This document shows, piece by piece, positions 6,272 through 37,794 of a stretch of DNA of 39,646 nucleotides (its first letter is position 1; every line of letters begins with the position of its first letter). Source of the stretch: Verrucomicrobiota bacterium (GTDB lineage: Bacteria > Verrucomicrobiota > Verrucomicrobiia > Limisphaerales > SIBE01); assembly GCA_016871535.1 (NCBI GenBank), contig VHCZ01000026.1, positions 1 through 39,646 on the forward strand. Direction: 5' to 3'. Below the pieces are notes generated by a model. It ran no database searches and was not told the origin of the DNA. It was given only the letters and a program-made list of their open reading frames with translations. A program made the translations under genes and the position numbers.

Positions 6272-6897
6272 AAGCTTGGCAGACTCTTAAAAATCACCGG
6301 TCAACCGTCAATCGAAAATGCCTTCCGCGAAACCGCCACGCCGCATCGTGACCGATGATGCCAGGCCGGTGGCGTCCGCATGAGCGCTGCTTTAGTCGCA
6401 CGGATTTCGCGGACGAATGCAGTCTCACATGGGGAGCACACGCGCCCTCGCGTGCTGTGGTCGGCGCCCTCGCCAACCAGACGGGTGCCATCGAACATTT
6501 CACCACTTAGTGACTTTCCGACACCTCTCTTCCGACCGGCGAGGCGCCGGTCGGAACACGCGAGGGCGCGTGTGCTCCCCGACTCCGGTCGCAGGCTCTC
6601 GGTTGTGGAATCATTCGTCATAAACCCCCGATTCAGAAATGGCCCGGGATGACGTCGCGCTCGTACAAAACGCGGATGCCCAGTGTTTCGAGTCGCTTTC
6701 ACGCATTGCTTTCCGGTTTCCCCAATTTAATAATTGCATTCCGCGAAGATTCAAGGATGCTCCCGGCAGTAACGACAACTCGTCGATTTTCAAGACTTGG
6801 AAAATCTTCAGATGAACAAGTGTTCAGGTGATGATTCAATACCGGATGTCCGGGAAACAGTCTCGGAAGTGGCAGTTCGTCAAATGCACAACCCCTC
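6272..6897. other. 626-bp intergenic region, no convincing gene
   Basis: This lies between divergently transcribed genes (the DUF1549 gene to the left, the RRM gene to the right). Apart from the 150-bp inverted-repeat element at 6431-6580 I see no conserved coding frame. The last 120 bases are AT-richer and include a small hairpin (GATTTTC with GAAAATC around 6785-6806), which may belong to the promoter or leader of the RRM gene. No consensus promoter could be assigned with confidence. Confidence 0.5.
6431..6580. repeat. 150-bp element with perfect 24-bp inverted ends
   Basis: The first 24 bases (6431-6454, starting GGGGAGCACACGCG) and the last 24 (6557-6580, ending CGTGTGCTCCCC) are perfect reverse complements. 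Inside is a second palindrome around 6533-6555 (CCGACCGG...CCGGTCGG). It has no coding capacity. The structure fits a MITE-like or REP-like non-autonomous element. No target-site duplication was obvious. Confidence 0.75.
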
Positions 6898-7247: not shown

Positions 7248-7317
7248 GGAGCGCGGACAGTTTGTCCGCGCGTTTCGGCTAATGGCGCAAGACCCGCGGA
7301 CAGGCTGTCCGCGCTCC
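7248..7317. repeat. Palindromic GGAGCGCGGACAG repeat
   Basis: A 70-bp element with inverted arms: GGAGCGCGGACAG-TTTGTCCGCGC at the left and CGCGGACAGGCTGTCCGCGC-TCC at the right (7295-7317). Each arm is itself a small palindrome (GCGGACA..TGTCCGC). The same architecture recurs at 22452-22530 and, more diverged, at 24544-24661. It lies between the RRM gene and the amidohydrolase gene and could act as a transcript-end structure. Confidence 0.75.
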
Positions 7318-24185: not shown

Positions 24186-24494
24186 TTAGGGTCTGTGCAA
24201 AAATAAATTCCGGTTTTGCTGGAGGTGATTTCGCTTTCTGGCAAGGCACGACGAAGGAGCATAGCCAGGGCTCTGCGACTGAGGAGAAACGAAGCCAGAA
24301 AGCGAAATCGCCCCAGCCCTCCGGGGCGGGGCGGCGCCTGGCGGGTGTAGTGTCTGGAGCCATGACAACTCAACCGGTTCCCGCTCGAAAGCCATCGACA
24401 AAGCAACCTGACGCGGAATGCGCTCCCAGCGAATCCGCTCGCGTGCCTCGGAGGACAACTGCCGCCAACGTTGGATGGTTTCTGTCCAGTTCAT
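24186..24494 (-). CDS. Small protein with repeat-derived C-terminus
   Basis: 102 aa from ATG 24494. The first ~50 residues (MNWTETIQRWRQLSSEARER, then IPRQVALSMAFEREPV) read as a genuine small helical protein, which I associate with short uncharacterised verrucomicrobial proteins. From about residue 47 the frame runs into the repeat at 24190-24358 and reads through it (LHPPGAAPPRRAGAIS, QSQSPGYAPSSCLARKR) to a stop at 24186. So the original C-terminus was probably replaced when the repeat arrived. Function unknown; it may be non-functional. Confidence 0.4.
   Translation of the reverse strand: MNWTETIQRWRQLSSEARERIRWERIPRQVALSMAFEREPVELSWLQTLHPPGAAPPRRAGAISLSGFVSPQSQSPGYAPSSCLARKRNHLQQNRNLFLHRP
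24190..24358. repeat. Hairpin element with conserved core, copy 1
   Basis: The arms GATTTCGCTTTCTGGC (24227-24242) and GCCAGAAAGCGAAATC (24294-24309) are perfect complements around a 51-base core that begins AAGGCACGACGAAGGAGCAT and ends CGACTGAGGAGAAACGAA. The same core with wholly different arms occurs at 37575-37627 and, inverted and diverged, at 37682-37737. After the right arm comes CCCTCCGGGGCGG, similar to CCCTTCGGGCCG after the first copy in the other element. The outer limits of this copy are approximate. Confidence 0.7.
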
Positions 24495-36834: not shown

Positions 36835-37521
36835 ATGAAACGAAGCTTGAGCACTCTGCGTCTATTCGCTGCGCTCGCGTGCCTTTGCCAGACCAGCGCG
36901 CTGCAGGCCGGAGGACTGGCGCTCAAAGTGGTGAAAAAGGATCCGCCGAGCGCAATCGATGAGTCGATTCGAAAAACCCTCCAACCGACCGCCATTCAGT
37001 TGCTCGACGGCGACAAAGCGGCGTTTGAATTCTGGCTGAGCGCTGAGGTTCCCCTGCAATCGGAACCTGCCTCTCCCTCGGCCGCCATGGACGCCATCAA
37101 GCAAAGCACGCTGCTCGGCGTCGTGGCCGTCGGCAGCGACACGCGAGACTACAAAGACGCCGAACTCTTTGCGGGAGTGTACACGATGCGCTTCGGCCTG
37201 CAGCCCCAGGACGGCAATCATCTGGGCACTTCCGAGTTCAACTATTTCGCCGTGCTGGTCACAGCCAAGAAGGACGTCAAACCGGACGGAATCACCGACT
37301 ACAAGACGCTGGTTAGAGCCAGCCGGTCCGGCACTCCATCGGATCACCCCGTCATTCTCAGTCTCCGGCCTGTTTCGTCGGTCGGGAGCGAAGCGCCGAA
37401 AATGAACGAACCGGCCCCGGAGCACAAAAGCGTGATTCTTAAGATCCCGGCACGTGTCGAGGGCGGCGAGCAAACCGCGCTGTTTTTCGAGTTGGTTTAC
37501 TACGGCAAAGGCAAAGTCTAG
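36835..37521 (+). CDS. Secreted protein of unknown function
   Basis: 228 aa with a signal peptide (MKRSLSTLRLFAALACLCQT, cleavage near QAGG). The mature part contains an alternation of beta-like stretches (AFEFWLSAEVPL, GVYTMRFGLQPQDGNHLGTS, HKSVILKIPARVEGG, LFFELVYYGKG) that I read as a small beta-rich periplasmic domain. I associate proteins of this type with Planctomycetes and Verrucomicrobia. No enzyme motif was seen. The stop codon TAG is the last part of the CTAG at which the 277-bp mobile-type element begins, so the element inserted precisely at the gene end. Confidence 0.75.
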   Translation: MKRSLSTLRLFAALACLCQTSALQAGGLALKVVKKDPPSAIDESIRKTLQPTAIQLLDGDKAAFEFWLSAEVPLQSEPASPSAAMDAIKQSTLLGVVAVGSDTRDYKDAELFAGVYTMRFGLQPQDGNHLGTSEFNYFAVLVTAKKDVKPDGITDYKTLVRASRSGTPSDHPVILSLRPVSSVGSEAPKMNEPAPEHKSVILKIPARVEGGEQTALFFELVYYGKGKV

Positions 37522-37794
37522 TGATGTGTTTCACAAATGGCTGGAGTTATGTTGCGCCCAAAACGGCCTGGGGCAAGGCGCGACGAGGGAGCATAGCCCC
37601 AGTGTTCTGCGACCGAGGAGCAACGCAGCTCCAGACCGTTTTCGGCGCGACCCTTCGGGCCGCAGGTCTTTTGGCCTCCCGATTCGTTGCTCGCGCCTTA
37701 CAGACCCACCAGGGGTATGCGCCTCGCTCGCGCCTCGCGGGAGGCCAAAATCCCTTGCGGCATAACTCCAGCCATTTGTGAGACACATCACTAG
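37518..37794. mobile_element. 277-bp MITE-like element with 34-bp terminal inverted repeats
   Basis: The first 34 bases (37518-37551, starting CTAGTGATGTGTTTCACAAA) and the last 34 (37761-37794) are reverse complements with one mismatch. CTAG at both ends could be part of the repeat or a duplicated target. Inside are two hairpin units facing opposite ways: arms 37560-37574/37628-37642 around core 37575-37627, and arms TTTTGGCCTCCCG/CGGGAGGCCAAAA (37669-37681/37738-37750) around core 37682-37737. There is no transposase, so movement would need one elsewhere in the genome. Confidence 0.75.

Follow-up and report, generated by a model that had tools for sequence, protein, structure and literature searches.

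A CTAG-targeting MITE with a conserved double-hairpin core at a stop codon in a Verrucomicrobiota genome, and its sister elements with different ends

Introduction

Bacterial MITEs are usually described species by species, as decayed remnants of one insertion sequence. REPINs and BIMEs, which are paired REP sequences, consist of two inverted hairpin units, occur in many intergenic copies and move by means of a tyrosine (RAYT) transposase without duplicating their target. MITEPsy1 of Pseudomonas syringae is derived from IS5/ISPsy2, uses CTAG or YTAA as its target and produces a 4-nt duplication (PMC3189936), and further small palindromic transposons with folding transcripts include Correia/NEMIS, RUP, BOX and the QMITEs of Coxiella (PMC10969869).

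Here, we describe an element at positions 37518-37794 of a 39,646-nt stretch of Verrucomicrobiota DNA (contig VHCZ01000026.1, the whole of which we refer to as the window). The element is one copy, of a type that we call A, of a non-autonomous MITE-type DNA transposon, and its two-hairpin core is common to a large set of elements that occur in at least two bacterial phyla and carry differing outer ends.

Results

Structure of the element

The inverted arms of the element (37518-37551 and 37761-37794) are 34 nt long, 97% complementary and separated by 209 nt, giving a total length of 277 bp with CTAG at both edges. The two target-site copies (37518-37521 and 37791-37794), which represent a duplication of at least the central TA, were delimited from the sequence, arm pairing and copy comparison. 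The left terminal inverted repeat, GTGATGTGTTTCACAAATGGCTGGAGTTATG, spans 37521-37551 on the plus strand (arm pairing and copy comparison) and the right repeat spans 37761-37791 on the minus strand (arm pairing); the type A end sequence is GTGATGTGTCTCAC. For the interior, we used a covariance model of the hairpin unit, R1, which also served for the genome searches. It detected unit 1, with a covarying outer stem and a conserved apex, at 37547-37667 on the plus strand (114.8 bits), and the homologous unit 2, in opposite orientation, at 37643-37765 on the minus strand (109.2 bits). Both units end in a common CCC-TTC-GGG mini-hairpin, placed by alignment and covariation within 37547-37667 on the plus strand for unit 1, and the central mini-hairpin between them, CCCTTCGGG (37651-37659), has a conserved CCC...GGG and corresponds to helix 8 of our covariation analysis.

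The left CTAG overlaps the upstream gene (36835-37521, plus strand), whose TAG stop forms its last three bases; the encoded 228-aa protein had no Pfam match. The original prediction, which had described 34-base ends with one mismatch, CTAG on both sides, the shared TAG stop and an interior of two oppositely oriented hairpin units, is thus borne out in each of these respects. The predicted fold energy of 37518-37794 is -163.5 kcal/mol, compared to -100.8 ± 5.1 kcal/mol for shuffled sequences (z -12.3). The open reading frames inside the 277 bp are short and of the kind expected by chance, and there is no transposase gene among them.

Copies of type A and duplication of the target site

The source genome (6.67 Mb in 460 contigs) contains eight full-length type A copies, 94-100% identical, and seven partial ones, all at unrelated loci; the seven full-length copies other than that of the window are 94-98% identical to it, and copy numbers derive from sequence searches and from a survey of 817 kb. 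That these copies are bounded alike shows the element not to be a chance arrangement: CTAG bounds every case but one, and the exception, C254, has CTGG on both sides. CCAG flanks both ends of a type A copy from a different family of the order (G010, SXMN01000023), and a further MAG, F1-80-MAGs106, also holds type A copies. Because CTGG and CCAG are not palindromic, their equal direct copies represent a real target duplication, either of the central TA/TG/CA or of all four bases, and the 2-bp TA and 4-bp CTAG readings fit type A equally. These findings support mobility and the predicted insertion into CTAG, and add the duplication to it. CTAG is scarce in the source genome, with 149 sites in 817 kb against ~2,900 expected from base-composition arithmetic (~20-fold depletion), so the choice of target is strict. 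Together with its size below ~500 bp, the missing transposase gene, the terminal inverted repeats and four orthologous loci that lack the element, the dispersed copies and target site duplication identify it as a MITE.

Type A ends also occur outside complete elements. The stretch L024:135-1061 (G000:C324) holds a ferritin-like gene flanked by type A ends in inverted orientation, one short and the other with half a core. Inverted copies of a further repeat (GGCGAGCCTGTCC...) enclose these ends, and the flanks are unequal (CA, TA). We rejected this 927-bp stretch as an autonomous element, given its unequal flanks and lack of a transposase. Three core-less mini-palindromes consist of type A ends only (L160:430-452, L164:2285-2306 and L056:1261-1307; e.g. 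TAGTGATGTGTCTCACACATCACTAG), and two of them share one junction. Approximately ten solo outer ends (16 bases or slightly more) are followed by unrelated sequence (L157, L158, L159, L161, L163 and L165; matches to TAGTGATGTGTCTCAC) and may be excision footprints or one-ended remnants. L087:1-130 and L159:2404-2508 have ~100 bp in common, ending in ACGCTTGTTGCAGG(G/A)CTAGTGATGTGTCTCACAA, where both contigs break; this stretch may mark the border of a multi-copy element that abuts type A ends and was not assembled.

A common core between different ends

The 817-kb survey of the source genome for hairpin units returned 47, nearly all of them as head-to-head pairs flanked by ~30-bp terminal repeats of several types. 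Irrespective of type, full elements measure 267-274 bp; they comprise 8 of type A, 16 of B, 2 of B', 5 of C, 8 of D and 1 each of E and F. Duplications of 3 bp (TNA), among them TCA/TCA and TGA/TGA, accompany types B, C and D. The source genome therefore holds the same core between at least seven types of terminal repeat: core identity between types was 64-85% in all 21 comparisons, versus at most 57% for shuffled sequences, whereas identity between the terminal repeats was at or near chance, except for B versus B'. The ends of the types may be very diverged relatives, or they may have been replaced. Within the window, a truncated type C sister at 24214-24333 (plus strand; 115.3 bits, with its flanks) retains the end GGGTCTGTGCAAAAATAA and one hairpin unit, its other half being lost. 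Two further long inverted repeats of the window, at 6431-6580 and 7248-7317 (arms of 38 and 26 nt), gave no match to the hairpin model.

Within the order, R1 matched 47 of 116 genomes, in a patchy distribution that leaves out some close relatives; it further matched 15 of 241 genomes across the phylum (a count that includes the source genome) and 41 of 299 genomes of the Pseudomonadota, the phylum of the gammaproteobacterial MAG G362. The matches that we examined were mostly pairs between terminal repeats, and the delimited Pseudomonadota elements are mostly 264-274 bp long. Sister types reside on plasmids of Azotobacter chroococcum, Pseudomonas aeruginosa PA83 and Halomonas sp.; the plasmid search found none of type A.

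Covariation and the folded molecule

We aligned 22 diverse units with MAFFT, without fitting them to a structure, and found compensatory double changes in 24 of 31 predicted pairs. A larger alignment of 76 units, which was fitted to the model and hence leans towards the structure, showed double changes in 30 of 31 pairs, with 93.2% of cells paired compared to 60.5% in shuffled and 31-44% in slid structures. The sequence of the outer stem varies freely, and the unpaired bases of the apex (AGGCGCGA..GA..GAGCATA / GA.GAGCAACG) are conserved. With similar sequences removed and one fixed G-T position excluded, G-T and A-C combinations stood at 38:11 in the model-fitted alignment (p 1.4e-4), and the unfitted alignment, limited to the outer stem, gave a smaller imbalance in the same direction (18:8). 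Since a double-stranded cruciform predicts equal numbers of the two, the folded molecule is probably single-stranded, RNA or ssDNA in the unit's own direction, with RNA the more likely of the two. With two opposed units, any reading direction gives one such unit, which may be what the arrangement is for. No curated covariance model of Rfam matched the window element and its surroundings at E ≤ 1 or nine other loci at E ≤ 0.1, and we rejected membership of an Rfam RNA family.

These data bear on the alternative that the hairpin pair acts as a DNA-level part of transposition, with a cruciform or ssDNA aiding end pairing or the recruitment of a host factor, and not as RNA. The core always sits between terminal repeats at a fixed length (264-274 bp), which raises the possibility that spacing and symmetry contribute to pairing of the ends, and no promoter-like or terminator-like site was found within the window element. 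However, the core is absent from full IS5 elements whose ends match, indicating that the transposase does not need it, and the excess of G-T over A-C runs against a cruciform; we regard this alternative as rather unlikely.

Position at the stop codon

Orthologs of the upstream protein in four genomes (G002, G003, G005 and G006; 64, 55, 52 and 47% aa identity, respectively) all stop at the same codon with no element behind it, in support of the original proposal that the stop codon was preserved on insertion. TAG is part of the duplicated site, so that an insertion at the CTAG stop of a gene does not alter the protein and is harmless. The comparison with empty sites thus yielded four element-free loci with the same protein end, but a literal empty CTAG was not among them, the nearest ortholog ending in TTAG through a wobble-base change in the last codon. 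An ortholog without CTAG had been expected to speak against the insertion; at 64% aa identity this one is too distant for a fair test and is uninformative. The location exactly at a stop codon is real but calls for no special mechanism, as the target is CTAG and 13 of the 149 CTAG sites (about 9%; crude gene call) are TAG stops.

Other copies lie close behind genes as well, as would be expected if the hairpins were 3'-end elements of host genes (transcription terminators or mRNA stabilizers) and copies were retained mainly for that role. Besides the copy behind the upstream gene, one sits at the TAG stop of secG, one lies 19 bp from a NUDIX gene, a solo type A end is found at the stop of a response-regulator gene, and the sister element on the PA83 plasmid begins 11 bp past the stop of an acyl-CoA dehydrogenase gene. 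Over 41 elements of all types, however, we found no 3'-end preference, with 25 start-facing and 25 stop-facing sides (24 unscorable; crude gene call). Moreover, the window copy has no T-tract terminator and presence is patchy between related genomes, making a 3'-end role unlikely as the main reason for retention.

Candidate transposases

The ends of sister types point to a likely mover of the class. An IS5-family element of the source genome (NF033580, 951 bp) has the ends AGAGCCTGTCCGAAAA, close to the type D end, and two IS5 elements from other genomes of the order start with CTAGAGCCTGTCATGCACTTTGG or, at one end or both, with this sequence minus its first base; these ends match those of a hairpin element in G197 that is bounded by CTAG (L188). 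By virtue of these matches, IS5-family transposases plausibly move the class, at CTAG as well as at TNA targets, and, judging from its sister elements, type A is likely to be moved by an IS5-family (DDE) enzyme too. The IS5 elements of the order are about 860-965 bp long, and the hairpin core was absent from all 30 IS5 loci examined. We therefore rejected the core as an IS5 subterminal sequence, and it is not simply the remainder after deletion of these insertion sequences. No complete insertion sequence with type A ends was found by pattern in the source genome, 57 relatives and six named genomes, or by exact 19-mer among 84,980 genomes, each search returning only MITEs and solo ends; multi-copy insertion sequences may be missing from the 460-contig source assembly. 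A transposon with matching ends, as anticipated in the original prediction, was thus found for sister types, in the form of IS5-family elements, but not for type A.

A TA core within CTAG also suits the IS630/Tc1-mariner family. If a transposase of this type moved type A, the duplication would be 2-bp TA in a CTAG context, and the source genome does contain one DDE_3 transposase gene. Its flanking inverted repeats, however, do not match the type A ends, and in sister types, which have the same core, the target is TNA and the ends match IS5 (NF033580) elements, one of them being CTAG-bounded. A CTAG-specific IS5-type MITE is, in addition, on record in Pseudomonas (PMC3189936), and we consider an IS630-type mover improbable.

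The original prediction further suggested that the element was built from a smaller hairpin family, but the relationship is the reverse, the hairpin pair being the conserved core of a transposon class: a few single units exist, but these are truncated or at contig ends, and with nearly all others head-to-head inside terminal repeats, capture of a separate REP-like family by a transposon is highly improbable.

Discussion

The explanation that we favor, and hold with considerable confidence, is that of an IS5-moved, CTAG-targeting MITE in which a common hairpin core is under selection for its fold and the ends have diverged. Type A would be moved in trans by a DDE transposase, most likely an IS5-family enzyme, that binds the ~30-bp terminal repeats; the element would be cut out or copied and inserted into C-TA-G, duplicating TA or the whole of CTAG. 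Type A would then be one of many sister types built on a ~210-bp core of two head-to-head units and the central mini-hairpin, with terminal repeats diverged to suit different IS5-family transposases. The core would be kept by selection on the folded single strand, either reading direction yielding one correctly folded unit.

Conservation is found in the interior, where decay would be expected, and takes the form of strong covariation and a fixed apex, whereas the ends that are needed for movement differ; this combination points to selection on the interior. It raises the testable question of whether the elements persist only as parasites of transposases or for the action of their hairpins; any benefit to host or element is conjectural. 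More speculatively, and with a likelihood that we would put somewhat below even, the double hairpin could represent a structured and conserved nucleic acid, probably RNA, with its own function. It would have reached at least two phyla by parasitizing a changing series of IS5-type transposases, its fold being kept while the ends were repeatedly replaced or remodelled. In practical terms, the R1 model would make it possible to annotate the many copies that public genomes contain without a label.

MITEs as such, including CTAG-targeting ones derived from IS5, are already known. What appears to be new is the double-hairpin core with many end types across phyla, as we found no description of this superfamily or its end sequences in the literature covered, a partial set with a minority of the subscription journals. 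MITEPsy1 resembles type A in being non-autonomous, in inserting at CTAG and in having ends related to an IS5-family element, but it is 100 bp long with 18-bp ends and no double-hairpin core has been described for it, the likeness being one of description only (PMC3189936). IS5-family insertion sequences of the NF033580 type share TNA or CTAG targets and, within the same taxonomic order, ends that match sister types, but they differ in their greater length, their transposase gene and the absence of a hairpin core. The elements described here are likewise not REPINs or BIMEs, despite the paired inverted units and many copies: they are ~270 bp long, bounded by long terminal inverted repeats and a target duplication, and composed of ~120-nt units with a conserved apex, and they are probably moved by a DDE rather than a tyrosine transposase. 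Finally, Correia/NEMIS, RUP, BOX and the QMITEs each represent one lineage, whereas here one covarying core is combined with many end types in two phyla.
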